Both the position numbers and the translations under genes were made by a program. The notes beneath the pieces were generated by a model that did no database searches, was not told the origin of the DNA, and saw nothing but the letters and a program-made list of their open reading frames with translations. From an uncultured Oscillospiraceae bacterium (GTDB lineage: Bacteria; Bacillota; Clostridia; Oscillospirales; Oscillospiraceae), in NCBI GenBank assembly GCA_934636305.1, contig CAKUAM010000005.1, forward strand, positions 1-47,967: a stretch of 47,967 nt of DNA, read 5' to 3'. How positions within the stretch are numbered: the first letter of the stretch is position 1; each line of letters begins with the position of its first letter. Below, piece by piece: positions 24,231 to 40,261 of the stretch.

Positions 24231-25348
24231 AGCGGCGCGGGCGGTTTGAGCGGCAGCACAGGCTGCCGAGGCTCCACGGCTACCGGCTGGTGCTGCTGAT
24301 TGTCTGCGCCGTGCTTGCGGTGCTGTCCGGCGCGTGCTGGGCGGCGCTTGCCGGGCTGCGGGGGACGCTTGTGACGCAGTCGGCGGCGGATGTCTGGCGC
24401 GGTGAGAGTGAGGAGCGATTTGCACAGGTGTCTGTGTTTTTGCCGGTCAACGGCACCAAGACATTTGACGAAATCCGTTCCTTCCGCGCCACGCTGGAGG
24501 AAAAGTTTGTGCAGGAGTCCATGGAGGCCCCGGAGGGCGGCAGTCTGTACACCGACGCATTCAGCGGCGAGACGGAGCTGACGGCCTATGGCACAGCGTC
24601 CGGCAATCTGACCGTGACGGCAATCGGCGTGGGAGGGGACTATTTTCTGTTCCATCCGCTGCCGCTGCTGTCCGGCAGCTATCTGACGGCGGACGATTAT
24701 ATGGGCGACCGTGTGGTGCTTGACGAGCAGACAGCGTTCGCACTCTTTGGCAGCAGCGATGTGGCCGGCATGGAGCTGACCATCAACGGCAAGACCTACC
24801 CGGTTGCGGGCGTGGTCGACCGGGAGTCGGACTTTGCCAGTCAGGCGGCGCTGGCCTCAGAGGATCCCAATAAGCCATCCGGGGATTCCAAGGCGATTAT
24901 TTTCATGGGCTATGAGGCGCTCAATGCCATCTCCGAGCTGCCCATCGACTGCTACGAGATCGTTCTGCCGGATCCCGTTTCCGGCTACGGCAAAAAGATG
25001 GTGACGGAGACGTTCCCGGTGGGAACCGGTGTTGTGGTGCAGAATACGGACCGGCTGTCGGTATCCGGACTTGTTTCGGTGCTCGGCAGCTTCGGCAAGC
25101 GCGTCATGACGACGCGCGGCGTTGTCTATCCCTATTGGGAGAATGCGGCCCGCATGATAGAGAGCTATGCGGCGGTGCTGCTTCTGCTTGCGGTGCTGCT
25201 GGGGCTGATGCCGGCGGTATGCCTGGTGATTGTGCTGGTGAAGCTGATCCGGCGCGGACTTGTGGGCGCATATACCGACGCGGCGCGCCGGATTGAGAGC
25301 CGTGTGGAGGCAAACAAGCAGAAGCATTACGTTTCCGGCGGAATTTAA
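24227..25348 (+). CDS. MacB-like periplasmic-core protein with only two membrane segments
   Basis: A 373-residue protein. One membrane segment near residues 19-41, a large extracellular domain with MacB_PCD-like features (TAIGVGGDYFLFHPLPLLSG, GDRVVLDEQTAFALFG, INGKTYPVAGVV), and one C-terminal segment (about 313-340). True MacB/FtsX permeases have four membrane segments, so about half the membrane part is absent, and no MacB ATPase is nearby. The start overlaps the adaptor gene by 4 nt. It may act with the HlyD-like protein as an adaptor or sensor unit; this is inferred. Confidence 0.75.
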   Translation: MKRRGRFERQHRLPRLHGYRLVLLIVCAVLAVLSGACWAALAGLRGTLVTQSAADVWRGESEERFAQVSVFLPVNGTKTFDEIRSFRATLEEKFVQESMEAPEGGSLYTDAFSGETELTAYGTASGNLTVTAIGVGGDYFLFHPLPLLSGSYLTADDYMGDRVVLDEQTAFALFGSSDVAGMELTINGKTYPVAGVVDRESDFASQAALASEDPNKPSGDSKAIIFMGYEALNAISELPIDCYEIVLPDPVSGYGKKMVTETFPVGTGVVVQNTDRLSVSGLVSVLGSFGKRVMTTRGVVYPYWENAARMIESYAAVLLLLAVLLGLMPAVCLVIVLVKLIRRGLVGAYTDAARRIESRVEANKQKHYVSGGI

Positions 25349-25400
25349 ATCAACGCGGGTCCCGGCCATCGACCGGGACCCGCGTTGATTTATTTTCTTT
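25346..25400 (+). terminator. Terminator of the 17.8-25.3 kb transporter operon
   Basis: A perfect 20-bp inverted repeat (arms 25346-25365 and 25373-25392, 7-nt loop) that includes the stop codon of the MacB-like gene, followed by TTTTCTTT. This is an exceptionally strong Rho-independent terminator. Confidence 0.85.
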
Positions 25401-25451
25401 CGTGGATCTGTATCGCGGAAATCGTTTCGGCTTTCTAGATCATTCCTGTGC

Positions 25452-25725
25452 TGCCTGACAGACCAATGCGAATCCGTACTGCGTAACAGATTTTATTTGC
25501 AGAACGGATTTGCTGCAGCAATTCAAATGCAACCGTCATCGAATTTGATTCCGGAATGACGGGCGGCGCGTAGTGAGACTCCGGTGAGGTGTGTTGGGGC
25601 GATATGGCTTCTTTCAGATTTGGGCGCTGCCTAAACTCAGATGCAGCATGCACCAAACGTTCCCCAAGCGCCCCTTTTCTCCCCCATCTTTTCCGGCAAG
25701 GCGGAAAAGATGGGGCCGCCGGAGG
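25452..25725 (+). repeat. Dispersed structured repeat, copy A
   Basis: Full-length copy of about 274 bp sharing long identical blocks with copy C at 34917-35189 (for example AATCCGTACTGCGTAACAGA, GACTCCGGTGAGGTGTGTTG and the CCCCATCTTTTCCG stem). The 3' end is a perfect 14-bp hairpin (arms 25682-25695 and 25702-25715). It sits in the convergent gap between the transporter operon and the DtxR-type gene. The remaining 50-110 bp on each side hold no recognised gene. Short reading frames across it are not conserved in frame between copies. Confidence 0.85.
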
Positions 25726-25833
25726 CTGAACAGAGCCTGAATTTTGGAAATGTTTCGTCCAACTCAGAATATTTCTGATGCGCTGCCAGAAGCGTCAGTT
25801 GACAAGGTGCCAATGCCAGAGGCTTGAAGCAGG

Positions 25834-25864
25834 CAGGCCCCGGCAGCATAGCTGCCGGGGCCTG
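25834..25864 (-). terminator. Hairpin terminator of the DtxR-type regulator gene
   Basis: A perfect 14-bp stem CAGGCCCCGGCAGC / GCTGCCGGGGCCTG with a 3-nt loop, 12 bp beyond the regulator's stop codon. The T-rich tail is on the plus-strand side (TTCTTT), so on the minus strand it is a strong hairpin with a poor T-tract; it may also block transcription coming from the left. Confidence 0.55.
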
Positions 25865-25875
25865 TTCTTTCAGAC

Positions 25876-26262
25876 TCAGGAATGATCCTGCTGTGTTCGC
25901 TGCGCCGATACGTGGTCGCAGATCGCGGCGAACGTTTTTTCACTGAGGTCATGCTCCACCTTGCAGGCATCCTCACGTGCGGTCTTTTCATCGACACCGA
26001 TCCGCATAAAAAACTCTGTCAGCGTTTTGTGCCGCGTATAAATGCGGTCGGCAATCTCCATGCCGCCGTCTGTCAGAGTAATCAGACCATCGCGATCCAT
26101 GGTGATAAGCCCGTTCTGCTTGAGCTGCTTGGTGGCATAGGTGACACTGGGTTTCGTTACGCCGAGATGCTCCGCCACATCAATGGAGCGGATATAGCCG
26201 TGTGTTTCGCGCATCATCAGCATGGCCTCGAGATAATCCTCTGCAGCTCTGTGCACACTCAT
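25876..26262 (-). CDS. DtxR/MntR-family metal-dependent repressor
   Basis: A 128-residue protein: N-terminal winged helix (IDVAEHLGVTKPSVTYATKQ) and a helical dimerisation/metal domain. Likely ligands are Glu8/Asp9, Glu12, His78, Cys100, Glu103 and His104. The DACKVEH cluster has a cysteine like the iron regulators DtxR/IdeR (EACRWEH), where manganese-specific MntR has Glu. The C-terminal SH3-like domain of DtxR is absent. It is divergent from feoA-feoA-feoB and most probably represses that operon when ferrous iron is plentiful. Confidence 0.88.
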   Translation of the reverse strand: MSVHRAAEDYLEAMLMMRETHGYIRSIDVAEHLGVTKPSVTYATKQLKQNGLITMDRDGLITLTDGGMEIADRIYTRHKTLTEFFMRIGVDEKTAREDACKVEHDLSEKTFAAICDHVSAQRTQQDHS

Positions 26263-26353
26263 GGCAAATTCACCAACCTTTCCAGCATATTTTTTTATAC
26301 GTTATCACAGATGGACGAAAAAAGCAAGTAAACAATTTTTTTGAAAAAAGCTA

Positions 26354-26407
26354 TTGACAACAGAGATTAGACATGTTAAACTGTGGGCTGGTTAGAGGGG
26401 TCTAACC
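26354..26407 (+). promoter_or_regulatory. feo operon promoter with a DtxR/IdeR-like palindrome
   Basis: TTGACA (26354-26359), 17 bp, TAAACT (26377-26382), then the perfect palindrome GGTTAGA-GGGG-TCTAACC (26390-26407) covering the likely transcription start. The half site TTAG...CTAA matches the core of IdeR/DtxR boxes, and binding here would block transcription. It lies 72 bp upstream of feoA. Confidence 0.65.
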
Positions 26408-26478
26408 TTTCGTTTTCCACGATGGTTAAGACGCCTTAATTGCAATTAGAGATACTGAATAAGGGGGCGTAGGATTTG

Positions 26479-26688
26479 ATGCCGCTTACACTCGCAAACG
26501 TCGGCGAATCAGCCATTATCCGCAAGGTTGGCGGAGGCCCGGAAACCAAAAAGCATTTGGAGGATCTGGGATTTGTCGCCGGCGGCGACGTCACGGTCGT
26601 CTCGATGATCGGCGGAAACGTCATCGTCAAGGTCAAGGAAGCACGCGTGGCCATCAGTGAGGAGATGGCACGTAAAATTATGATTTAA
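26479..26688 (+). CDS. feoA: FeoA domain protein (first copy)
   Basis: A 69-residue SH3-like protein starting MPLTLANVGESAIIRK, with the family core LGFVAGGDVTVVSMIGGNVIVKV. FeoA assists the ferrous iron transporter FeoB. The ATG at 26479 is preferred over the adjacent TTG at 26476, with the leader AAGGGGGCGTAGGATTTG. It differs clearly from the second copy (residues VGGGPETKKHLED in place of LHGEGPVKRRIMD), so the two are not a recent duplication. Confidence 0.9.
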   Translation: MPLTLANVGESAIIRKVGGGPETKKHLEDLGFVAGGDVTVVSMIGGNVIVKVKEARVAISEEMARKIMI

Positions 26689-26700
26689 GGAGAGAAGAAC

Positions 26701-26922
26701 ATGAAAACGCTGAGAGAAGCCAAAATCGGCGATACCGTCAAGGTTGTGAAGCTTCACGGTGAGGGCCCTGTCAAGCGCCGGATCATGGACATGGGCATTA
26801 CCAAGGGCACCGAGGTCTTTGTGCGCAAGGTTGCGCCTCTGGGTGACCCCATGGAGGTTACCGTCCGCGGCTACGAGCTGAGCCTGCGGAAAGCAGATAC
26901 CGAAATGATTGAGATCGCATAA
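26701..26922 (+). CDS. feoA: FeoA domain protein (second copy)
   Basis: A 73-residue SH3-like protein (KTLREAKIGDTVKVVKLHG, then MDMGITKGTEVFVRKVAPLG and MEVTVRGYELSLRKADTE). This is the more canonical FeoA, with the conserved KRRIMDMG stretch. It lies 12 bp after the first copy and 27 bp before feoB, with AAGGAGAG before its ATG. Tandem feoA genes are frequent in Clostridia. Confidence 0.93.
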   Translation: MKTLREAKIGDTVKVVKLHGEGPVKRRIMDMGITKGTEVFVRKVAPLGDPMEVTVRGYELSLRKADTEMIEIA

Positions 26923-26949
26923 TGTACTTCAACAAAAAGGAGAAGTAAG

Positions 26950-29448
26950 ATGGAAAAACAAATCAAAATTGCCCTTGCGGGCAACCCGAACTGCGGTAAA
27001 ACAACGCTGTTCAACGCGCTGACCGGTTCGAACCAGTTTGTCGGTAACTGGCCTGGTGTCACGGTCGAAAAGAAGGAAGGCAAACTCAAAAAGCATGACA
27101 ATGTTGTCATCATGGACCTTCCTGGTATCTACTCCCTTTCCCCGTACACGCTGGAGGAAGTCGTCTCCCGTAACTATCTGATCACGGAGCGCCCGGACGC
27201 CATCCTGAACATCATCGACGGCACCAATCTGGAGCGTAACCTCTACCTCACCACGCAGCTGACAGAGCTGGGCATCCCGGTTGTCATTGCAATTAACATG
27301 ATGGATGTCGTCCGCAAGTCCGGCGACCAGATCAACGTCAAGGAGCTTTCGCGTCAGCTGGGCTGCCCGGTCGTTGAGATCTCGGCTCTGAAGGGCGACG
27401 GCATTATGGAGGCTGCTGAGGCAGCTGTCACTGCAGCCGGCGGCAAGCACACGGAGCCGCAGCATGCGTTCTCCGGCCCGGTGGAGCACGCCATTGCCCA
27501 TATCGAGGAGGCTGTCCTGCACGACAAGCCCGCTGAGCAGCAGCGCTGGTACGCGATCAAGATCTTTGAGCGCGACGACAAGGTTCTCGAGCAGATGCAG
27601 ATTCCTGCAGACGTGATGCAGCACATCGAAACCGACATCAAGGCGGCTGAGGCAGAGCTGGATGACGATGCAGAGTCCATCATCACCAACGAGCGCTATG
27701 TGTACATCGCAGAGGTCATCAAGAGCTGCTACAAGAAAAAGAACAAGGAAAAGCTCTCCAACTCTGATAAGATCGACCGCATCGTGACCAACCGCTGGTT
27801 GGGCCTGCCGATTTTCGCGGTTGTCATGTTCTTGGTTTATTACATCGCCATGGTCGCTGTCGGTGCGCCGGCAACAGACTGGGCAAACGATGGCCTGTTC
27901 GGCGACGGCTGGCATCTGCTGGGTATCGGCTCGTCCGCATATTCCGATGCATCCGATGAATACACCGCTGCCAGCGAAGCTGCCGAAGCTTTCTATGGCC
28001 TTGACACCGAAGCAGAAGATTTCGACGCTGACACCGCGCTGTCTGAGATGCAGGCGCTGCAGCCGGAATCCACCACTGCAACTGTTGACGTGGAAGATGA
28101 AGAAACGCTTGCCGTCAACGAAATGACCGCTTACTACGATGCAATTCCCGATGACGCTGATGAGGATTCCACTGTTGGCATGAGCTACGTGGACGCTGTC
28201 AGCTACTTCGGAGAGAACGGCTTTGACGAGCCTGATCCCGCTGACTACGGCGTATGGGTCCCCGGCGTTCCTGTTCTCATTGAGAACGGTCTGGACGCAG
28301 CAGGCGTTCCGGAGGATGGCTGGCTGCACGGCCTGATCCTCGACGGTATTGTCGCTGGTGTCGGCGCAGTGCTTGGCTTCGTCCCGCAGATGCTCGTCCT
28401 GTTCCTGATGCTCGCGTTCCTGGAGGCTTGCGGCTACATGTCCCGTATCGCATTTGTCCTCGACCGTATCTTCCGCAAGTTCGGCCTGTCCGGTAAGTCC
28501 TTCATCCCGATGCTCATTGGCGTCGGCTGCGGCGTTCCGGGCGTCATGGCCTCCCGTACCATCGAAAACGAGCGTGACCGCCGTATGACGATCATGACCA
28601 CCACCTTCATCCCCTGCGGTGCAAAGGTCCCGTTTATCGCCATGATCGCCGGCGCCCTCTTTGGCGGCAGCGCATGGGTTTCCACCTCTGCATACTTCAT
28701 CGGCATGGCTGCCATCATCATTTCAGGCATCATGCTGAAAAAGACCAAGATGTTCTCCGGCGAGCCGGCTCCGTTCGTCATGGAGCTGCCGGCTTACCAC
28801 TGGCCGACACTCGGCAACGTCCTGCGCAGCATGTGGGAGCGCGGCTGGTCCTTCATCAAGAAGGCTGGCACCATCATCCTGCTGTCCACCATCGTTGTCT
28901 GGTTCACCACCTACTTCGGCTGGGTTGAGGGCACGTTCCAGATGCTCTCTGACGAGCAGATCGACAGCTCGATCCTCGCTCACATCGGCAACGCCATCGC
29001 CTGGATCTTTGCGCCGCTCGGCTGGGGCAACTGGCAGGCAGCTGTTGCATCCATCACGGGCCTTGTTGCAAAGGAGAACATTGTCGGCACGCTCGGCATT
29101 CTCTATGGCGGCGGCGACGGCACTGTGTATCAGAACATTGCGAGCGCCTTCACCGGCATCACTGGCTATTCCTTCCTCGTGTTCAACCTGCTGTGCGCAC
29201 CCTGCTTCGCTGCAATCGGTGCAATCAAGCGTGAGATGAACAGCGCAAAGTGGACATGGTTCGCAATTGGCTATCAGTGCGGCTTCGCCTATGTGATTGC
29301 ACTCATGGTCAACCAGTTCGGCGCTCTGTTCACCGGCAACGGCAATGTCCTCGGCGTGATCGTCGGTGTTGCACTGCTGGCCCTGATCGTCTGGATGCTT
29401 GTCAAGCCGTATAAGGAAGCTACCAAGCTCACCACGAAGGTCAAGTAA
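26950..29448 (+). CDS. feoB: Ferrous iron transporter FeoB with a large acidic insertion
   Basis: An 832-residue membrane protein importing Fe2+. The N-terminal GTPase has GNPNCGKTT (from residue 11), DLPGIYS and NMMD motifs. Membrane segments start near residue 282 (LPIFAVVMFLVYYIAMVAVG), followed by Gate-like repeats (GVGCGVPGVMASR, MTTTFIPCGAKVPF). Between the first membrane segment (GDGWHLLG) and the second (GWLHGLILDGIVAGVG) lie about 110 residues (about 326-435) with 31 Asp/Glu and no Lys, Arg or His, absent from ordinary FeoB of about 700-770 residues. That loop should face outside. Its codons favour GAA while the flanks favour GAG. Confidence 0.96.
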   Translation: MEKQIKIALAGNPNCGKTTLFNALTGSNQFVGNWPGVTVEKKEGKLKKHDNVVIMDLPGIYSLSPYTLEEVVSRNYLITERPDAILNIIDGTNLERNLYLTTQLTELGIPVVIAINMMDVVRKSGDQINVKELSRQLGCPVVEISALKGDGIMEAAEAAVTAAGGKHTEPQHAFSGPVEHAIAHIEEAVLHDKPAEQQRWYAIKIFERDDKVLEQMQIPADVMQHIETDIKAAEAELDDDAESIITNERYVYIAEVIKSCYKKKNKEKLSNSDKIDRIVTNRWLGLPIFAVVMFLVYYIAMVAVGAPATDWANDGLFGDGWHLLGIGSSAYSDASDEYTAASEAAEAFYGLDTEAEDFDADTALSEMQALQPESTTATVDVEDEETLAVNEMTAYYDAIPDDADEDSTVGMSYVDAVSYFGENGFDEPDPADYGVWVPGVPVLIENGLDAAGVPEDGWLHGLILDGIVAGVGAVLGFVPQMLVLFLMLAFLEACGYMSRIAFVLDRIFRKFGLSGKSFIPMLIGVGCGVPGVMASRTIENERDRRMTIMTTTFIPCGAKVPFIAMIAGALFGGSAWVSTSAYFIGMAAIIISGIMLKKTKMFSGEPAPFVMELPAYHWPTLGNVLRSMWERGWSFIKKAGTIILLSTIVVWFTTYFGWVEGTFQMLSDEQIDSSILAHIGNAIAWIFAPLGWGNWQAAVASITGLVAKENIVGTLGILYGGGDGTVYQNIASAFTGITGYSFLVFNLLCAPCFAAIGAIKREMNSAKWTWFAIGYQCGFAYVIALMVNQFGALFTGNGNVLGVIVGVALLALIVWMLVKPYKEATKLTTKVK

Positions 29449-29480
29449 GTTCCTGCGTTTCTCAAAGGAGTGTGATATCC

Positions 29481-29630
29481 ATGCTAGGTACGATTTTGAT
29501 TTCAGCCGGTCTGGCCGCAATTGTAGTTGCCATTTGTGTATATCTGGTCCGCCAGAAAAAACAGGGCAAATCTTCCTGCGGTGCCAATTGCGCGCACTGC
29601 GCCAATGCAGGCCATTGCCATCATGGATAA
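29481..29630 (+). CDS. FeoB-associated Cys-rich membrane peptide
   Basis: A 49-residue peptide starting at the ATG at 29481 behind AAAGGAGTG. One membrane segment (ILISAGLAAIVVAICVYLV) is followed by a short basic stretch and a Cys/His-rich tail (SSCGANCAHCANAGHCHHG) with four cysteines and three histidines. This matches the FeoB-associated Cys-rich family always found beside feoB in Firmicutes. It probably binds iron near the channel mouth; the function is not proven. Confidence 0.9.
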   Translation: MLGTILISAGLAAIVVAICVYLVRQKKQGKSSCGANCAHCANAGHCHHG

Positions 29631-29644
29631 GGGGGCTATGAAAC

Positions 29645-29899
29645 ATGTATCAGTATACGCTGAAAATTGACGGCATGATGTGCGGCATGTGCGAATCGCA
29701 TATCAATGATGTGGTCCGTAAGACCGCGGCAGTCAAGAAAGTCTCCTCCTCGCACGCAAAGGGCGAAACCGTCATCATCAGTGAGCAGACGCTCGATGTG
29801 CAGGCACTGAAAAATGCCATCCATGATACGGGCTATGAGGTCACGGATGTGACTGAGGCACCCTGCGAGAAGAAGCACTTCTCCCTGTTCAAGAAATAA
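29645..29899 (+). CDS. Heavy-metal-associated (HMA) domain protein
   Basis: An 84-residue CopZ-like fold: beta-alpha-beta start YQYTLKIDGMMCGMCESHI with the CxxC pair in GMMCGMC, which binds a soft metal, usually Cu(I). A short lysine-rich tail (EKKHFSLFKK) with one more cysteine follows. It is 14 bp after the Cys-rich peptide and thus last in the feo operon, which suggests a link between iron uptake and a metal chaperone. No copper ATPase is nearby. Confidence 0.88.
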   Translation: MYQYTLKIDGMMCGMCESHINDVVRKTAAVKKVSSSHAKGETVIISEQTLDVQALKNAIHDTGYEVTDVTEAPCEKKHFSLFKK

Positions 29900-29920
29900 G
29901 CAAGTTTCCTCCAATTCGGG

Positions 29921-29965
29921 AAATCCGTTCTGCTCCCATGCCGGCAGGACGGATTTTTTCTTTTC
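29921..29965 (+). terminator. Terminator of the feo operon
   Basis: Stem AAATCCGTTCTGC / GCAGGACGGATTT (arms 29921-29933 and 29944-29956, one G-T pair) continued by TTTTTTCTTTT, 22 bp after the HMA stop codon. Confidence 0.75.
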
Positions 29966-29995
29966 CAAAGGGGAAGCGCAGATCATACGCCACAA

Positions 29996-30095
29996 GACCC
30001 ATGCAAACCCATACTGCGTACCAAATTTTATCCGCAGTGCAGATTTATTGCAGTGGTTCAACTGCAACGGCTATCAGATTTGATTCCGAAATGAA
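29996..30095 (+). repeat. Dispersed structured repeat, copy B (5' module only)
   Basis: About 100 bp matching the first part of copies A and C (ATACTGCGTA, ATCCGCAGT, TTTATTGCAGTG, CTGCAACGGCTATCAGAT). Similarity stops right after GATTCCGAAATGA, where the other two copies continue into a second module. It lies between the terminators of the convergent feo and MATE transcription units. Confidence 0.8.
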
Positions 30096-30131
30096 CTGTT
30101 TGCATCAGCATGCTTCTGACACGCTAGAGGC

Positions 30132-30178
30132 ATACAAAAAACGCGGATGGAGCAGCGCTCCCTCCGCGTTTTTTGTAT
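30132..30178 (-). terminator. Bidirectional terminator of the MATE/lipase operon
   Basis: Outer stem ATACAAAAAACGCGGA / TCCGCGTTTTTTGTAT (30132-30147 and 30163-30178) with an inner GGAGC/GCTCC stem. T-tracts occur on both strands. It ends 3 bp from the MATE stop codon. Confidence 0.8.
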
Positions 30179-30180
30179 AT

Positions 30181-31539
30181 TCAGGTTTTGACAGGCTTTT
30201 TCTCGAAGCCATGTACCCAATCGGAGAAGTGATAATAGATGAGGTATACAATCGAGCTGAGCGACCACGTCAGCGGGTATGCCCAGTAGATATACTGAAT
30301 CTCATGGACGATATGCATGACGATGGTGATGTACAAAATACGGATGACACACCAGAACAGGAGCATAATAATCATCGGGACAAATGCCTTGCCGGCGCCG
30401 CGGCAGACTGCCGCAACTGCGTGGGAAAAGGCGAGCAGACAGAAGAACAGGGAAATGGTCCGCATTTCCCGCGCGCCAAGCGCAATCACCTCCGGCGTCT
30501 CGGTAAAGAGGGAGATGAGCGCCGGCGCAAACAGATACATGAGTACGCCGATGATCTCAGCAATGACGACAGAGGAAATAATGCCGAAGCGGGAGCCCTT
30601 TTTGGCCCGGTCATACTGTGCCGCGCCGAGATTCTGGCTGACGAAGGTGGTAAGGGCCATCGTAAAGCTTGTGACCGGCAGGAACGCAAAGCCCTCCAGC
30701 TTGGCATACGCGCCGTAGGCCGCCATGGCGATTTTGCCGAAGGAGTTGATATTGGACTGTACAATAACGTTTGCAAAGCCGATGACGGAGTTCTGGACGC
30801 CGGCGGGCAGGCCGTAGCGCACAATCTGCTGCAGCATTTCAGGGTCAAGACGCAGCTTTTTGGGCTGCAGCTGATAAATGGTGCCCCTTTTCATCAGATG
30901 AATGAGGCAAAGCACCATGCTGACAGCCTGAGAGATTGTTGTGGCAACGGCGGCAGACCAGACGCCCCAATGGAATACGCCGATGAACAAAAGGTCCAGG
31001 ACGATGTTCGTGATCGATGACAAAATCAGATAATACAGCGGCCGGCGGCTGTCGCCGAGCGCATTCATGATGCTCTTGCAGGTGTTGTACATGGTGACAG
31101 CCAGCACACCCATGAAGTAATACCGGAAATAGGCAATGGCGTCCGGCAGAACCTCCGGATCCGTGCCCATCCAGCGCAGCAGCGTCGGCGTGAGCAGAAC
31201 GCCGACCACGGTCAAAAACAGCCCGGCCAGCAGACTGAACAGAACGTTTGTATGAATGGCGCGGGAAACCTTGTCGTGGTCACCGGCGCCAAAATAGCGG
31301 GAGATTGTGACGCCCGCACCCATGGTCATGCCCTCAAAAAAGCTGATCAGCAAGAAAATCAGCGGCCCGGAGGAGCTGACGGCGGCCAGCGCCTCATCCC
31401 CAAGAAAGCGGCCGACGATCAGCGCGTCTGCCGTGTTATAAAGCTGCTGAAAAACCTGACTGAGAAAAACCGGAATGGCAAAGCCAATGATGAGCCGCCA
31501 GGGGCTGCCGTGCGTCATATCCCGGGTTGATCCGTTCAT
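30181..31539 (-). CDS. MATE family efflux transporter
   Basis: A 452-residue multi-spanning protein with the MATE signature (FAIPVFLSQVFQQLYNTADA, then LIVGRFLGDEALAAV). The start is set at the ATG at 31539 (MNGSTRDMTHG) with AAAGGATGG upstream; 26 further codons are open in frame but lack family similarity and a ribosome site. The substrate is unknown. It resembles the protein at 13354-14748 in organisation (SINSFG and FTSQNLGA/FVSQNLGA blocks shared) but is clearly diverged. Confidence 0.92.
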   Translation of the reverse strand: MNGSTRDMTHGSPWRLIIGFAIPVFLSQVFQQLYNTADALIVGRFLGDEALAAVSSSGPLIFLLISFFEGMTMGAGVTISRYFGAGDHDKVSRAIHTNVLFSLLAGLFLTVVGVLLTPTLLRWMGTDPEVLPDAIAYFRYYFMGVLAVTMYNTCKSIMNALGDSRRPLYYLILSSITNIVLDLLFIGVFHWGVWSAAVATTISQAVSMVLCLIHLMKRGTIYQLQPKKLRLDPEMLQQIVRYGLPAGVQNSVIGFANVIVQSNINSFGKIAMAAYGAYAKLEGFAFLPVTSFTMALTTFVSQNLGAAQYDRAKKGSRFGIISSVVIAEIIGVLMYLFAPALISLFTETPEVIALGAREMRTISLFFCLLAFSHAVAAVCRGAGKAFVPMIIMLLFWCVIRILYITIVMHIVHEIQYIYWAYPLTWSLSSIVYLIYYHFSDWVHGFEKKPVKT

Positions 31540-31658
31540 GCTGCATCCATCCTTTCCATGCTGGATCTGCGCTGCGCGCGTAACTCTTAGCATAACAAAA
31601 GGGGGGACAAAAAGCAACCCTGACTGTCGGAAAAAGAACGAAACTGGAGGGAAAAAGC

Positions 31659-32819
31659 CTATTTTGGATCCAGATCGTCCGCCATCTTCTGCATGGGCAG
31701 CAGCCTAAGCAGCTTCTGCAGCGGCAGAAGCTCGGCCGCTGCCGTTTTTGCCCCGGACACGACGAGCAGACGCAGGGCGCTGCCAAGCGCGTGGCGCGTG
31801 GGCTTGTCAAGCGTGCGGTATTTTTTAAGCATGGCAGCAGCTGTTTTGAGCCCGCCTTCCTTGAGATCGGTCAGTGTGCCGGCGCTCGTACAGGTGAGAA
31901 TATCAAAAAGTGCGTCGGTAAATGCCAGTCGCTGCCCATCATCAAGAGAGAGGATAAAGGTACGCAGCGCCTCATCGACAAGCTTGCCGCCCTCGGTGAG
32001 ATCCGGCAGATGCTCAAATTGTTCGCCGCGCACCTGCCAGGAAAAGCCGTCGTGCTGCATGAGGCCAACCTGTGTGCTGCGTACAACCTGATAGCTCTCC
32101 TCATGCTCCAGAAGCATGCCGACAACGGACGACTCCGGCAGGATGGTAAAAATGCGGCTGGCAATCCGCTTATGCTGCGCAAGCGGCAGCAGGGACGTGC
32201 GGAACCCGGGGCCGTCGTTGTTATAGATGGCAAGCAGCTGGTTCTGCACGGCTTCCCCGCAGAAAACAGCGGCGAACACGGCAAGATTGCCGCCCTTGGA
32301 GTGGCCGCCTACGCGCAGCGGCAGCGCGGCCAGCGCCTTTGCAGCGGCCTGCAGATACTCCACGGCCATGCGCTGGGCAGGAATGATGGTGAGAAACGCC
32401 ATGTTGAAATCTTCCTTCCAGCCGACGATGGTATCGTCGGTGCCGCGGTAGGCAACATAGGCGGTCCCATCCGGTAAGAGCGCGGTCAGCGCAGAAAACT
32501 GTGTCTGTGACGCGTCATCCGTGTGGGAGCAGTAGCCGCAGAGCGTGATGCCGCGGAAACGGGCGCTGGCCGCCATTTTGCGGCCAAGCGCCGGAATCTC
32601 ATCCGGAACCAGCACGCCCATGGATTCATCGTGGCGCACCGCGTCATAGCGCGCCATTGCCTCCGGCAGGGGCACCGGACAGTCAAAGCGGGTGGGCAGC
32701 AATCCGTCAAAATCCAGATAGCACAGCTCCGCCAGCAGCAGATTGTCCACCTCATTGAAGTCCCGCTCAGAAAGTGTCAGATCGCCGCGCCAGTCAAGAT
32801 AATCCAGAATATTTGCCAT
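31659..32819 (-). CDS. Mbeg1-like (DUF2974) alpha/beta hydrolase
   Basis: A 386-residue protein with a lipase-like core: VAYRGTDDTIVGWKEDF (oxyanion region) and the nucleophile elbow GGHSKGGN with Ser174. The family is widespread in Clostridia and lactobacilli and has no known substrate. The start at 32819 (MANILDYLDWRGD) has GGAGG 7 nt upstream; 22 additional upstream codons are rejected. There is no signal peptide. It is 119 bp before the MATE gene on the same strand and may share its transcript. Confidence 0.85.
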   Translation of the reverse strand: MANILDYLDWRGDLTLSERDFNEVDNLLLAELCYLDFDGLLPTRFDCPVPLPEAMARYDAVRHDESMGVLVPDEIPALGRKMAASARFRGITLCGYCSHTDDASQTQFSALTALLPDGTAYVAYRGTDDTIVGWKEDFNMAFLTIIPAQRMAVEYLQAAAKALAALPLRVGGHSKGGNLAVFAAVFCGEAVQNQLLAIYNNDGPGFRTSLLPLAQHKRIASRIFTILPESSVVGMLLEHEESYQVVRSTQVGLMQHDGFSWQVRGEQFEHLPDLTEGGKLVDEALRTFILSLDDGQRLAFTDALFDILTCTSAGTLTDLKEGGLKTAAAMLKKYRTLDKPTRHALGSALRLLVVSGAKTAAAELLPLQKLLRLLPMQKMADDLDPK

Positions 32820-32919
32820 TGCCGTTCCTCCAGCGGTGTTTTGTAGTATCATATACAGAATATGCCGGAAATACAACAAAATCAAGCGCAGAAGATCTTA
32901 AATTTTCATGAAAACGACC

Positions 32920-32962
32920 AACCTATAAACCTATTGACTTTGTGGGGAATGTATGCTATTCT
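32920..32962 (+). promoter_or_regulatory. Promoter of the iscS-iscU operon with a tandem AACCTAT repeat
   Basis: TTGACT (32934-32939), 17 bp, TATTCT (32957-32962), 29 bp before the start codon. Two AACCTAT copies (32920-32926 and 32928-32934) sit immediately upstream of and touch the -35. This could be a regulator site; no IscR gene lies in the window. Confidence 0.55.
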
Positions 32963-32991
32963 CATGACAGAAATAAAGGAGTTGATACCAT

Positions 32992-34179
32992 ATGAACGTT
33001 TATGCAGACAATGCTGCAACCACGAAAATGCATCCGTCGGCGATCGATACGATGGTCTATCATTTAAATAATACCTATGGCAACCCCTCCAGCCTCTATG
33101 AGATTGGCCAGAAGGCCAAGGAGGTGCTGGAGCAGGCGAGAAGCGATATGGCGGCATGCTTCGGCGCGCAGCCGCGGGAGATCTATTTTACCTCCGGCGG
33201 CAGCGAGGCGGACAATCAGGCCATCACCTCCGCAGCCTACATCGGCGCACGGAAAGGAAAGAAGCATATCATCTCCACCGCGTTTGAGCATCATGCGGTT
33301 CTGCACACGCTCAAACGGCTGGAAAAGCAGGGCTTCGAGGTGACGCTTCTTGATGTGCACGCGGATGGCCTTGTCACGGCGCAGCAGGTCAGAGATGCGA
33401 TCCGCGACGACACGTGCCTTGTGACCATCATGTTTGCCAATAATGAAATCGGCACCATCCAGCCCATTCGCGAAATTGGCGCCGTCTGCAAGGAAAAGGG
33501 CGTTTTGTTCCACACGGACGCGGTACAGGCTGCCGGCCATGTGGCGATCGACGTGAACGAAATGAACATCGACATGCTGAGCCTTTCCGCGCACAAGTTC
33601 CATGGCCCCAAGGGCGTCGGCATGCTCTATGCCCGCCGCGGGATCATTCTTACAAACCTGATTGAGGGCGGCGCGCAGGAGCGCGGCAAGCGCGGCGGCA
33701 CGGAGAATGTCCCTGGTATTGCGGCCATGGCGGCAGCGCTCAAGGAGGCCTGTGCCAACATGGACGAAAATACGAAGAAGGTTACAGCGCTGCGGAACAA
33801 GCTCATTGACGGCATTTCCAAGATTCCGCACTGCGCGCTCAACGGCGCACGCAGCCCGCGCCTGCCCGGCAATGTAAACTTCTGCTTTGAGGGCATCGAG
33901 GGCGAGAGCCTTCTGCTGCTGCTCGATGCAAAGGGCATCAGCGCTTCGTCCGGCTCTGCCTGCACGTCCGGCTCGCTCGATCCCAGCCATGTGCTGCTGG
34001 CTATCGGCCGGCCGCATGAGGTTGCGCACGGCTCGCTGCGGCTGACAATCTGTGAGGATAACACAGAGGAAGAAATTGATTACATGCTTGCCCAGATTCC
34101 GCCCATTGTCTCCTACCTGCGCGATATGAGCCCGGTATGGAAGGATCTTGAGAGCGGCAAACGGCAGTTCGTTCTGTAA
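32992..34179 (+). CDS. Cysteine desulfurase (NifS/IscS type)
   Basis: A 395-residue PLP enzyme that takes sulfur from cysteine for iron-sulfur cluster assembly. It starts MNVYADNAATTKMHPSAI, with the PLP lysine Lys202 in SLSAHKFHGPKG and the catalytic Cys324 in SGSACTSGSLDPSH, the class I active loop. The ATG follows AAAGGAG at 10 nt. It is followed 19 bp later by its scaffold IscU, forming a minimal Isc pair typical of Clostridia. Confidence 0.96.
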   Translation: MNVYADNAATTKMHPSAIDTMVYHLNNTYGNPSSLYEIGQKAKEVLEQARSDMAACFGAQPREIYFTSGGSEADNQAITSAAYIGARKGKKHIISTAFEHHAVLHTLKRLEKQGFEVTLLDVHADGLVTAQQVRDAIRDDTCLVTIMFANNEIGTIQPIREIGAVCKEKGVLFHTDAVQAAGHVAIDVNEMNIDMLSLSAHKFHGPKGVGMLYARRGIILTNLIEGGAQERGKRGGTENVPGIAAMAAALKEACANMDENTKKVTALRNKLIDGISKIPHCALNGARSPRLPGNVNFCFEGIEGESLLLLLDAKGISASSGSACTSGSLDPSHVLLAIGRPHEVAHGSLRLTICEDNTEEEIDYMLAQIPPIVSYLRDMSPVWKDLESGKRQFVL

Positions 34180-34198
34180 GAATAGGAGGAAAGCAACC

Positions 34199-34636
34199 AT
34201 GGCACTCTATACAGAAACTGTAATGGATCATTTTATGCATCCGCGCAATGTTGGGGAAATTGCAGACGCCGATGGCATCGGGGAGGTCGGCAATGCCAAG
34301 TGCGGCGATATCATGAAGATGTATCTGAAGATCAAGGACGACAAGATCGAGGATGTCAAGTTTGAAACGTTTGGCTGCGGCAGCGCAATTGCGTCGAGCT
34401 CCATTGCAACGGAGATGATCAAGGGGCGGACGCTTGAACAGGCGCTGGCACTGACCAACCAGGAGGTTGTGGAAGCGCTGGGCGGCCTGCCCGCGCACAA
34501 GCTGCACTGCTCTGTGCTGGCAGAGGAGGCCGTCAAATCGGCCATCCAGGATTATTATGAAAAGAACCATATCGACTACGACCACAGCAAGTTCCCCAAG
34601 AAAGAGGACTGCGAGTCCTGCTGCCGAATGGTATAA
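34199..34636 (+). CDS. Iron-sulfur cluster scaffold protein IscU/NifU-N type
   Basis: A 145-residue scaffold with the three conserved cysteines Cys35 (NAKCGDIM), Cys60 (FGCGSAIASSS) and Cys104 (LHCSVLAEEA), and Asp37. The start is the ATG at 34199 after AGGAGGAAAGCAACC; an upstream in-frame ATG at 34148 lies inside the desulfurase gene. The last ten residues add a CESCC cluster not present in E. coli IscU but seen in some clostridial forms. Confidence 0.95.
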   Translation: MALYTETVMDHFMHPRNVGEIADADGIGEVGNAKCGDIMKMYLKIKDDKIEDVKFETFGCGSAIASSSIATEMIKGRTLEQALALTNQEVVEALGGLPAHKLHCSVLAEEAVKSAIQDYYEKNHIDYDHSKFPKKEDCESCCRMV

Positions 34637-34642
34637 CAAACA

Positions 34643-34677
34643 AACCGGGTGCGGTCATGGACTGCACCCGGTTATTT
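34643..34677 (+). terminator. Terminator of the iscS-iscU operon
   Basis: Stem AACCGGGTGC / GCACCCGGTT (34643-34652, 34664-34673) with inner GTC/GAC pairs, then ATTTTAG. It is 6 bp after the stop codon. Confidence 0.7.
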
Positions 34678-34783
34678 TAGCTTTGCTTTGAGATAGGCGT
34701 TGGCCTTAGATTCGTAATACAAAAAAGAAACCTTGAAGAATTTTCAACATTTTCTTTTTACATCTTTCAAAAGGAGAACGGCT

Positions 34784-34902
34784 CATACTTTCTTTCTCGC
34801 CACTCCGAGAAAGAAAGTATGGCAAAGAAAGAGGAGCCCGGGGGATTCCGATTTCCCCCGGACCCCTTAAAGCGGCCAAGAAAACCGCTTTGGTTTTCTT
34901 GG
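34784..34902 (+). repeat. Array of three perfect hairpins preceding repeat copy C
   Basis: In a row: a 16-bp stem (34784-34799 with 34806-34821, CATACTTTCTTTCTCG), an 8-bp stem (34838-34845 with 34854-34861, CCGGGGGA) and an 11-bp stem (34876-34886 with 34892-34902, CCAAGAAAACC). None is followed by a gene. The stretch 34678-34783 before it is AT-rich and shows no gene. Confidence 0.7.
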
Positions 34903-34916
34903 ATCTTTCCCGCGTT

Positions 34917-35189
34917 GCCTGGAAGTCCAATGCGAATCCGTACTGCGTAACAGATCTTATCCGCAGTATGGATTTATTGCAGTGATTAAACTGCAACGGC
35001 TATCAGATCTGATTCCGAAATGACGGGCGGCGCGTAGTAAGACTCCGGTGAGGTGTGTTGGTGCGATATGAGTGCTGACAAAGTTGTTTTTCACCTAAAT
35101 TCAGTGGCGAGAGGCACCAAACGTTTCCCAAGCGCCCCTTTTCTTCCCCATCTTTTCCGGCAAGGCGGAAAAGATGGGGCCGCCGGAGG
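34917..35189 (+). repeat. Dispersed structured repeat, copy C
   Basis: Full-length copy of about 273 bp in the same orientation as copy A. Internal stems: TACTGCG/CGCAGTA (34941-34947, 34962-34968), TTGCAG/CTGCAA (34977-34982, 34991-34996), palindrome ATCAGATCTGAT (35002-35013), and the closing 14-bp stem CCCCATCTTTTCCG (35146-35159 with 35166-35179). It sits in the convergent gap between iscU and the MocR-like gene. Confidence 0.85.
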
Positions 35190-35235
35190 CCTCCCATCTG
35201 TCGACACAGCAAATACAGTAAGGAAAGTGAAAAGT

Positions 35236-35272
35236 GCAGTCACAGTATTTTACGCTTTTGTGACTGCTTTTT
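35236..35272. terminator. Hairpin between repeat C and the MocR-like gene
   Basis: Stem GCAGTCAC / GTGACTGC (35236-35243, 35260-35267), loop of 16, followed on the plus strand by TTTTTAC. On the minus strand the tail is ACTTTTCAC. It probably ends transcription of the 39.3-35.3 kb operon and may work both ways. Confidence 0.5.
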
Positions 35273-35292
35273 ACATTCTTGATGAAGGAATT

Positions 35293-39475: not shown

Positions 39476-40261
39476 ATGTTTTCAGATGCAGAGCGTGTGA
39501 TCTATGCCAAACGGCAGCTGCTGGAGGTGATCTGCCAGCTGCGGTTCCCGGATATTTTGAAAATCGAATCAGCGGAGCCGGCCGGCTTTCAGGATCTGAT
39601 CCGGCAGAGCTACCCGCAGTACGAAAAGAAAATTGAGCAGCTGCCGCCGCAGGTGGTAAACGGAAAGCCTGTACCGCAGGGGACAGTCAATAACTATCAG
39701 TTCATATCCGCCGACGGACAGTGGAAGGTGAGCCTGACCAAGAGCTTCGTTGCCCTTTCCACGCACGGCTATGTGCGCTGGGAGGAATTTGCCCAGCGGC
39801 TGGACAAAATTCTGGCGTCGTTTATTGAGCTCTATCAGCCGTCGTGGTTTACCCGCGTCGGTCTGCGCTACGTCAACGCGTTCCGGCGCGAGGCGCTGGG
39901 GCTGGAGGGCTGCCTCTGGAAGGAACTGATTACGCCGGGCTTTCTGGGGCTGATGGCCGATGAGGATGCGCAGGAGAGTGCGTTCTTAAAGGATGAGCAG
40001 ACCGCGACGCTGCAGATGCCGGGCGGGGCCAAGGCCAATGTGAAGTCCGGGCCGGGGCTTCTGCGCAAGGTAAACAACCGTACGCGCGAAACAAGCGAGG
40101 AGCGGGTGTTCATGCTGGATCTGGATCTGTATATGGACAGCAGGATTGAGCTTGGCCAGGCGGTGCCGGCCCTCAATATCGTGCATGAAAATGCAGGCAG
40201 CCTGTTCCGTGCGGCAATCACGCAGACGCTCAGTGACGCCATGGAGCCGGAAAGAGCCTGA
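39476..40261 (+). CDS. TIGR04255 family protein
   Basis: A 261-residue soluble protein starting MFSDAERVIYAKRQLLEVIC, followed by QLRFPDILKI and the family's VGLRYVNAF and DLDLYM...ALNIVHENAGSLFRAAIT blocks. The family is scattered across bacteria with no known function. The ATG at 39476 is chosen by family start and AGGAAAGG upstream (12 nt, rather far; a GTG four codons earlier is possible). It is a single-gene unit with its own promoter and terminator. Confidence 0.85.
   Translation: MFSDAERVIYAKRQLLEVICQLRFPDILKIESAEPAGFQDLIRQSYPQYEKKIEQLPPQVVNGKPVPQGTVNNYQFISADGQWKVSLTKSFVALSTHGYVRWEEFAQRLDKILASFIELYQPSWFTRVGLRYVNAFRREALGLEGCLWKELITPGFLGLMADEDAQESAFLKDEQTATLQMPGGAKANVKSGPGLLRKVNNRTRETSEERVFMLDLDLYMDSRIELGQAVPALNIVHENAGSLFRAAITQTLSDAMEPERA

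Follow-up and report, generated by a model that had tools for sequence, protein, structure and literature searches.

Why should a repeat lie in every gap between facing genes, and in no other kind of gap? This question is raised by the window analysed here, a stretch of 47,967 nucleotides from an uncultured Oscillospiraceae bacterium (contig CAKUAM010000005.1). The preliminary description had placed the repeat, always in the same orientation, in all three convergent gaps and nowhere else, and had proposed either a role at transcription ends or an element tolerated only at such sites.

Repeat copies and gene ends in the window

A profile of the repeat, run over the whole window, matched three places, one per convergent gap:

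25464-25726, + strand, repeat copy A, full length (~262 bp), in convergent gap 25349-25875 (profile match)
about 29999-30095, + strand, repeat copy B, a 5' fragment, in convergent gap 29900-30180 (profile match 30002-30084; aligned to A and C over 29994-30094)
34928-35190, + strand, repeat copy C, full length, in convergent gap 34637-35292 (profile match)

Copies A and C align in two ungapped parts with 80% (198 nt) and 91% (97 nt) identity, and B, from which the 3' part is absent, matches the first 100 bases of A at 76% identity and those of C at 86%. Our own gene caller, compared with ten window proteins that Pfam names and with genes scoring below 12 removed, placed the +/− junctions at 25348/25876, 29899/30181 and 34636/35293. 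Every convergent gap by these calls holds a copy. All three copies share the + strand, which has a chance of 1 in 4. Keeping one removed call (29502-29624, − strand, score 8.9) would create an extra convergent junction without the repeat. Rfam covariance models gave no match at gathering score over the repeat, the stretch of copy C likewise staying below gathering. No phage or plasmid source was matched by blastn, and exact-pattern scans with the 5' part of the repeat returned nothing from the genome contig and viral contig collections.

Each gap also contains a pair of hairpins beside its genes:

25349-25389, + strand, terminator-like hairpin with T-rich tail, directly 3' of the left gene, gap A
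25834-25864, no strand assigned, hairpin adjoining the right gene of gap A, without a T run on that gene's strand
29921-29956, + strand, terminator-like hairpin and T run after the left gene, gap B
30132-30178, no strand assigned, terminator-like hairpin with T runs on both strands, adjoining the right gene, gap B
34638-34678, + strand, terminator-like hairpin with T-rich tail after the left gene, gap C
35228-35275, − strand, hairpin with T-rich tail adjoining the right gene of gap C, terminator-like by eye

At all six gene ends a hairpin stands between stop codon and repeat. Because these hairpins, five of the six terminator-like, separate each stop codon from the repeat, a role in termination or insulation is unlikely.

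Gap types in a relative and likely mobility

The closest genome found (G126), and the only relative in which gap types could be tabulated, carries, within 956,464 bases, 17 full or near-full copies together with 5 fragments; GTAG-type pairs adjoin some of these copies. Both neighbouring genes were called for 14 of the full or near-full copies, whose gaps are convergent in 6 cases, co-directional in 5 and divergent in 3, against a background of 99 convergent gaps in 780, or 14,289 convergent bp in 91,631 intergenic bp. The binomial probability of 6 of 14 is 0.005 when gaps are counted, 0.014 when intergenic bp are, and 0.024 when only gaps of 50 bp or longer are counted; adding three fragments (6 of 17) raises these values to 0.015, 0.038 and 0.061. 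Three convergent copies out of three, as in the window, would have a probability of 0.004 if placed at random on intergenic bases (the G126 convergent share cubed) and of about 0.08 at the G126 rate of 6/14. Convergent gaps in G126 are enriched for the repeat and are not its exclusive site. Judged by the refuting condition of the preliminary description, copies spread over gap types in proportion to their number, the idea stands as an enrichment. In other lineages the bias is absent for the 3' module of the repeat, described below: 31 places with both neighbours called comprise 2 convergent, 18 co-directional and 11 divergent gaps (20 more places lay at contig ends, and some places were counted twice). 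These two sets of counts rule out an exclusive convergent location beyond the window. 'Nowhere else' accordingly holds within it and fails outside, where G126 copies occupy every gap type. The proposed tolerance fits better than a function there, as a preference and not as a restriction.

The proposal that the element works at transcription ends (insulation, supercoil relief or 3' processing), and is held in convergent gaps by selection, draws on the 3/3 convergent copies of the window and the 6/14 of G126. It has to contend with the 8 of 14 G126 copies that lie elsewhere, 3 of them in divergent gaps, and with 29 of 31 module places elsewhere in other lineages. Five gene ends orthologous to those of the window are without the element in G126, five of the six gene ends in the window have terminator-like hairpins of their own, and no T tail is present 3' of the hairpin that closes the module. 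We regard such a role as very improbable.

Several features bear on mobility. Truncated and internally deleted copies occur in the family, and the copy alignment has a sharp 3' edge, falling from 1.3–2.0 bits to 0.0–0.5 beyond CCGCCGGAGGC, with one position at 1.0. In G126, copies or a fragment lie beside orthologues of other window genes (the 40261 side, and upstream of MATE), where the window has none. The ~262-bp repeats have likely spread as a non-autonomous mobile element. No empty site of the repeat was found. Nor was there a target-site duplication, the mark of a classical MITE or DDE transposon remnant: the 17 copies gave 4.94 with their own flanks versus 5.25 with swapped ones, 2870 of 3000 shuffles being at least as high. 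For the Y1 transposase that an IS200/IS605-like or RAYT-mobilised element calls for in the carrier genome, PF01797 gave 0 matches in G126 (2 candidates scored, in a many-contig assembly that may lack parts), and 2, 5, 1, 0 and 0 matches in genomes G034, G260, G298, G001 and G088. Synteny with G126 was broken at all three element gaps and at 6 of 23 other junctions (P = 0.032; 16 junctions left out of the tally). Since 5 of 8 other gaps of at least 100 bp were broken too, these breaks are not distinctive, and a rearrangement hotspot was rejected.

A mirrored pyrimidine tract at the 3' end

With these results the question shifts from the location of the repeat to the nature of its end. Full copies finish with a tract of pyrimidines and, after a spacing of 6 nt, a hairpin carrying the mirror image of that tract in its 5' arm; the tag CCGCCGGAGGC follows:

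25673-25680, + strand, pyrimidine tract of copy A (predicted third strand), mirroring arm 25687-25694, spacer 25681-25686
25682-25715, + strand, 3' hairpin of copy A, arms 25682-25695 and 25702-25715, 14 bp, loop 6
25716-25726, + strand, end tag CCGCCGGAGGC of copy A
35137-35144, + strand, pyrimidine tract of copy C (predicted third strand), mirroring arm 35151-35158, spacer 35145-35150
35146-35179, + strand, 3' hairpin of copy C, arms 35146-35159 and 35166-35179, 14 bp, loop 6
35180-35190, + strand, end tag CCGCCGGAGGC of copy C
34784-34833, − strand, related mirror-tract module in gap C, hairpin 34784-34821, tract 34824-34833, without CCGCCGGAGGC

The tag occurs twice in the window, in A and C (0.06 expected), and the − strand module mirrors over 10 nt at spacing 7. 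Taken by itself, copy C folds stably (z of −4.35 on the + and −3.94 on the − strand). For the full 262 bp a conserved RNA fold was rejected, only the 3' hairpin exceeding a column-shuffle null: it has 21 two-sided changes, versus 6 in the next best helix and 9 in the best of 30 shuffled alignments, and the remaining predicted helices are supported by invariant or G-U pairs.

The 3' module also terminates other repeat bodies in related genomes. Among 300 genomes of the family, with 15 candidates scored in each, R1 matches to this end were obtained in 42. Across modules the mirror match between tract and arm was 6.80 nt for own pairs versus 5.39 (sd 0.17) for swapped ones, with 0 of 5000 swaps as high; the direct-match control gave 5.70 versus 5.38 (159 of 5000). 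A direct or inverted relation is weaker than the mirror. Mirror scans placed 17 of 22 matches in 29 other-lineage loci, and 16 of 18 in G126, at spacing 6; the scan found 0 matches in 1.23 Mb of loci L001-L080 and 0 in 10 Mb of shuffled sequence. Among 77 distinct modules, the best mirror (at least 5 nt) stood at spacing 6 in 62 and at another spacing in 5, with none in 10. G126 alone separates mirror from direct poorly, the direct scan giving 17 matches at spacing 8, and 400 kb of G128 gave 0 matches with 6-nt arms and 3 of 6 five-nt matches at spacing 6, versus 6 direct matches.

A tract-blind sample was gathered by a pattern search for hairpins that made no use of the tract, in genomes matched in earlier searches; a tract-free covariance model had been set aside because the aligner misplaced arms. 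In 28 of 28 hairpins, drawn from 10 genomes, a tract at spacing 6 mirrored the arm over 6 nt or more. These hairpins represent only 4 distinct innermost pairs, the modules being related by descent, and 148 of 702 between-genome swaps still match. The 14-base pattern GGGCCGCCGGAGGC alone matched 91 of 300 genomes. Of 29 loci newly fetched with it, 4 only had the tagged hairpin module (5 modules), two already known (G126 and G028) and three with a short tract or none.

The hairpin itself covaries (25 two-sided changes versus 5.7 in shuffles), and between lineages tract and both arms change jointly (T.A:T, C.G:C). Template switching in palindromes is another possible source of stem covariation. 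An account without a triple helix would combine it, as what keeps the stem perfect, with a likeness of tract and arm due to shared pyrimidine richness and joint inheritance. The relatedness of the modules, the few distinct pairs in the tract-blind set, mirror and direct matches that tie in 6 of 30 arms, and L126 (the same copy as L101), in which the tract changed and the arm did not, would all suit that account. It sits poorly with the other arms, where the mirror is longer in 22 and the direct match in 2, and with the near-constant spacing across lineages. Exact mirror register is seen in every one of the 4 distinct pairs, with 0 of 12 cross-swaps reaching 6, and in two G126 copies (L109, L110) the same change stands in the tract and in both arms. 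We consider this account distinctly improbable.

The module might instead act as RNA, with the tract in the hairpin's major groove protecting or regulating the transcript, and with some lineages locked as an H-type pseudoknot by pairing of the loop with bases before the tract. Loop–upstream complementarity exceeds that of swaps (2.91 versus 2.54, sd 0.09; 0 of 5000), in related modules and uncorrected for kinship. Several lineages could form 4–5 bp of this pairing, and the two inner spacer pairs (94 cells) contain 9 G-U versus 3 other mismatches. Copies in co-directional gaps are in sense with the genes in 17 of 25 cases (P = 0.054; 6/8 in G126 and 11/17 in others, repeats merged by eye). On the other hand, loops are too short for pairing in several lineages (L262, L263, L327), 2–3 bases are paired in most G126 copies, and the window copies sit past terminator-like hairpins, with no promoter-like site seen in the three gaps. 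An RNA function is unlikely on this evidence.

The reading that we favour, and hold to be probable on balance, is that these are ~262-bp, likely mobile repeats whose ends are predicted single-strand pyrimidine (Y.R:Y) triple helices of the class IV motif. A single strand of tract and hairpin would fold into the triple helix, most likely when the strand is single, as DNA in replication or transfer or as RNA, and some factor would read this structure as the element's end. Copies would persist mostly where harm is small, including the space between facing terminators, so the convergent position in the window would come from tolerance and not from function at transcription ends. We suggest more tentatively, and consider it doubtful, that an undescribed class of small mobile elements in Ruminococcaceae has the predicted helix as its recognised end, evolution having held the three strands in register at a fixed 6-nt offset as the sequence changed. 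If so, that register would be the trace to be expected where a real triple helix is under selection in living bacteria.

A single strand of the E. coli intrastrand triplex motif folded in vitro, but in vivo footprinting gave no support for this fold, and the words covariation and compensatory are absent from the available text of that survey (PMC4666352). Evidence of another kind comes from three strands that change jointly at a near-constant spacing, and it offers an exact test, in which the mirror is broken and the hairpin kept.

Comparison with known systems

Judged from titles, no earlier description of the repeat or module was found in the literature searched; among the matches listed for the tag's first ten bases, none was by title on bacterial repeats. 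Pseudoknots with a pyrimidine-motif triple helix are exemplified by yeast telomerase RNA. There, as in the module, a pyrimidine tract before the stem would run parallel to the purine strand. In contrast, loop pairing is absent in several module lineages, and the module is known here from DNA sequence.

Like the repeat, the REP/BIME elements (GTAG and CGTC families) are palindromic and intergenic; they lie mainly in convergent and co-directional gaps, and mobilisation in trans has been proposed for them, according to the part of the source available (PMC3733652). They measure 20–40 bp and are tagged on one side by GTAG or CGTC (PMC3733652), whereas the module's hairpin has a mirror tract before it and CCGCCGGAGGC after it. 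By reading, the GTAG or CGTC tag of such a REP is absent from the hairpin flanks.

TM-ECO (BoxC, PIT) of E. coli is likewise a multi-copy intergenic intrastrand triplex motif, linked to variable, rearranged loci (PMC4666352). Unlike the module, it is described in the accessible text as class II, a G/C-rich purine motif with a 37-nt consensus (PMC4666352), and its pattern CCCTCNCCC-N3-6-GGGNGAGGG had 0 matches in the window.

The closest likeness is to class IV, 4% of motifs in the ITxF survey, in which one strand carries, from 5' to 3', a Hoogsteen-Y tract, Y arm and R arm (PMC4666352). The module has this strand order, and the class IV motif is also dispersed and intergenic (PMC4666352). ITxF admits stems of 6–15 nt, loops of 1–6 nt and one mismatch from 7 nt (Holder et al. 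2015, PMC4666352). By eye, copies A and C agree with these sizes while lying near the limits: a perfect 8-nt stem leaves loops of 6 then 8, and allowing one mismatch in a 9-nt stem brings the second loop to 6. The module differs from the motif, as far as the available text describes it (PMC4666352), in forming the 3' end of a larger repeat in Ruminococcaceae, with a fixed tag and a 6-nt spacer, and in showing joint change of its three strands.

Repeat copies in the window and the proposed transcription-end role

The window is chromosome-like (57% GC), and ten of its proteins carry Pfam names (among them feoB, MATE, NifS-like, NifU-like, DtxR-like, GntR-like). Genes were called with a program written for this analysis and trained on the window and one relative. 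These calls give three convergent gaps with one repeat copy apiece, and a profile search found no fourth repeat place in the window, bearing out the preliminary description, which placed the repeat in every convergent gap of the window and nowhere else. A weak gene call at 29502-29624 (score 8.9) was dropped; retaining it would create one more convergent junction, and that one would hold no repeat.

Repeat copies and gap hairpins in the window
25464-25726: copy A, confirmed by sequence comparison
about 29999-30095: copy B, confirmed by sequence comparison
34928-35190: copy C, confirmed by sequence comparison
25349-25389: hairpin with T-rich tail, gap of copy A
25834-25864: hairpin with no T run on its gene's strand, gap of copy A
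29921-29956: hairpin with T run, gap of copy B
30132-30178: hairpin with T runs on both strands, gap of copy B
34638-34678: hairpin with T-rich tail, gap of copy C
35228-35275: hairpin with T-rich tail (by eye), gap of copy C

Searching genome_contigs and viral_contigs with an exact pattern drawn from the element's 5' part returned nothing, and neither phage nor plasmid records matched. A neighbouring Mbeg1-like gene (15 homologues aligned among 120 listed) led to locus L001, from a Ruminococcaceae MAG (RUG14835). When two candidates were scored per genome, 7 of 400 genomes of its family matched copy C, and only G126, of the same genus as the L001 genome, matched a large part of it. Full scoring of G126 gave 26 copy C matches; the two other genomes of the genus gave none. 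Our G126 sample comprised 120 stretches, including the contigs with copy C matches, and the window proteins detected in it (hits with at least 45% identity across half of the query) showed 63-96% identity. Across its 956,464 bases the profile picked up 17 copies that are full or near-full, plus 5 fragments; one 30-base match from the full scoring (contig C62) is left out of these numbers.

The proposed role at transcription ends is not supported. A hairpin lies between every stop codon and the repeat in all three convergent gaps of the window, and five orthologous gene ends in G126 are free of copies; both observations argue against a transcription-end element. No element was found at the G126 orthologues of the DtxR, feoB operon, MATE, NifU and GntR gene ends, and the sampled part yielded no orthologue for the sixth flanking gene. 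Occupied sites have also changed in the other direction: G126 carries a copy next to its orthologue of the gene that ends at 40261, as well as a fragment upstream of its MATE orthologue, and the window lacks the element at both sites. Our consensus scanner recovered part of the six gap hairpins, with two scans scarcely or not above shuffles, and reported no promoter-like sites in the scanned window gaps. Synteny with G126 is broken at all three convergent gaps (25349-25875, 29900-30180 and 34637-35292), and likewise at five of the eight other window gaps of at least 100 bp.

Element anatomy and the mirror tract

The unit is about 262 bp long, with a sharp 3' edge at CCGCCGGAGGC and a less sharp 5' edge, where other repeats adjoin, including inverted GTAG-type hairpin pairs. 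In three of four loci (L119, L122, L129) the element's 5' end is directly preceded by such pairs (GTAGGGGTCGATG... and ...CATCGGCCCCTAC), which appear REP/BIME-like; L121 and others have a single GTAG-type hairpin just before the element. Copies have lost internal sequence (L132, L133), the 5' part (L127, L131, L134) or the 3' part (window copy B, L214). The flank of one G126 copy (L097:2652-2750) matches a purine riboswitch at 46 bits (gathering 37).

R1, a covariance model built on the final 80 positions of the element, matched 42 of 300 family genomes, frequently with several matches in one genome; 15 candidates were scored for each. There the sequence 5' of the module is seemingly unrelated, by eye, and the layout is repeated: a pyrimidine tract, about 6 nt, a hairpin whose 5' arm is pyrimidine and whose 3' arm is purine, then CCGCCGGAGGC or a near form. 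The tract is the mirror of the hairpin 5' arm. The mirror match averaged 6.80 nt over 30 distinct arms, versus 5.39 when swapped (sd 0.17; 0 of 5000 shuffles as high), and the direct-repeat control gave 5.70 versus 5.38 (159 of 5000); arm by arm, the mirror was longer in 22, the direct repeat in 2, with 6 ties.

A mirror scan run without the end tag placed copies A and C at spacing 6, as were 16 of 18 matches in G126 and 17 of 22 in 29 other-lineage loci, with 0 matches in loci L001-L080 (1.23 Mb). The direct-repeat scan gave 17 matches at spacing 8 in G126, because CTTTTC is its own mirror, and matches in the other-lineage loci were scattered (at most 5 at any one spacing); the mirror case therefore rests on the other lineages. 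The scan also placed a minus-strand window module at spacing 7 (also 9). This second mirror-tract hairpin (10-nt mirror) lacks the CCGCCGGAGGC tag. A further hairpin (34832-34867) precedes its tract, an arrangement also seen in other genomes' modules, and the whole spans 34784-34867.

Since R1 contains the tract, we used a tract-blind pattern (purine arm and tag only), which gave 84 matches in 10 of 20 genomes. Thirty fell in 29 newly collected loci, 28 with a hairpin and 2 without (L344, plus strand; L345, minus strand). All 28, from 10 genomes chosen as earlier searches had matched them, had a mirror tract at spacing 6 that was 6 nt or longer, one scoring longer at spacing 4. They collapse to 4 distinct innermost pairs, for which 0 of 12 cross-swaps reached 6; among all tract-blind modules of different genomes, 148 of 702 swaps did. 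Dinucleotide shuffles (10 Mb) gave no mirror-module match. Over 77 distinct modules from all collected loci, the best mirror (at least 5 nt) lay at spacing 6 in 62 and elsewhere in 5, with none in 10. Genome G128 holds a weak form: no six-nt mirror in 400 kb, and five-nt mirrors at spacing 6 in 3 of 6 matches, versus 6 direct matches.

By eye against L328, the tagged, hairpin-less L345 module looks as if the stretch separating its tract from the purine arm had been deleted, the kind of event that slippage at such a motif might produce. Two IMG/VR contigs filed as viral, L351 (12,480 bp) and L352 (9,781 bp), carry four and three tagged modules.

Three-strand register

Forty-seven modules were chosen for having a mirror of 6 nt or more at spacing 6, a choice that itself makes tract and arm agree. 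Among them, positions 2, 4, 5, 6, 7 and 8 each occur as both T.A:T (11-35 modules) and C.G:C (9-19); position 3 is C.G:C once and position 1 never. By our own sum, 338 of 353 cells are T.A:T or C.G:C. Five of the six spacer bases are usually paired; at the two inner spacer pairs A-T, G-C, C-G and T-A all occur, and of 94 cells 9 are G-U and 3 hold mismatches of another kind. The 14-bp hairpin is paired in 291 of 294 cells over 21 copies (2 window, 19 G126), with 25 two-sided changes versus 5.7 in shuffles. An arm change from C-G to T-A is accompanied by the same tract change in L109 and L110; in L101 (= L126) the tract changed and the arm did not. A short link is able to span a deep groove 5-7 pairs long in A-form geometry, and this would account for the module spacing. 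That the module acts as RNA stays a rival reading. In several lineages (for example L254, L256, L305 and L339), and absent from others, 4-5 loop bases can pair with those just 5' of the tract, a possible pseudoknot.

Gene context and comparison with known systems

Gene orientation was tabulated for the 17 G126 copies that have a gene call on either side; 5 copies at contig ends were excluded. The 14 full or near-full copies lie in 6 convergent, 5 co-directional and 3 divergent gaps, and the 3 fragments are all co-directional, against a background of 780 gaps (99, 575 and 106). For full or near-full copies the convergent excess gave P 0.005 by gap count, 0.014 by bp without elements and 0.024 against gaps of at least 50 bp; with fragments, 0.015, 0.038 and 0.061. 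In G126 the convergent bias holds as an enrichment (P 0.005-0.024, by null) and not as an exclusive location: 8 of the 14 copies occupy other gap types. The element may be tolerated in convergent gaps. The bias does not extend to the modules of other lineages. There, 58 loci held 51 module places, 20 at contig ends; the remaining 31 were 2 convergent, 18 co-directional (12 reading with the genes, 6 against) and 11 divergent, or 2, 17 and 7 in 26 gaps with doubles merged by eye.

The best reading, and a likely one, is a non-autonomous mobile repeat whose end, as a single strand, would fold into a pyrimidine triple helix that a putative factor would recognise. The analysis shows that the repeat is dispersed, that its sites have changed, that other genomes share its end and that three strands stay in register; that it folds, moves, is recognised and is tolerated where it lies is inferred. 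No target-site duplication was found at element copies, and no Y1 transposase in G126.

The gaps in which REPs lie are reportedly for the most part convergent or co-directional (PMC3733652). Intrastrand triplex motifs fall into four classes in earlier work, class IV making up 4% of the motifs surveyed (PMC4666352), and the window module has the same order as class IV. The E. coli motif described there is class II and G/C-rich.
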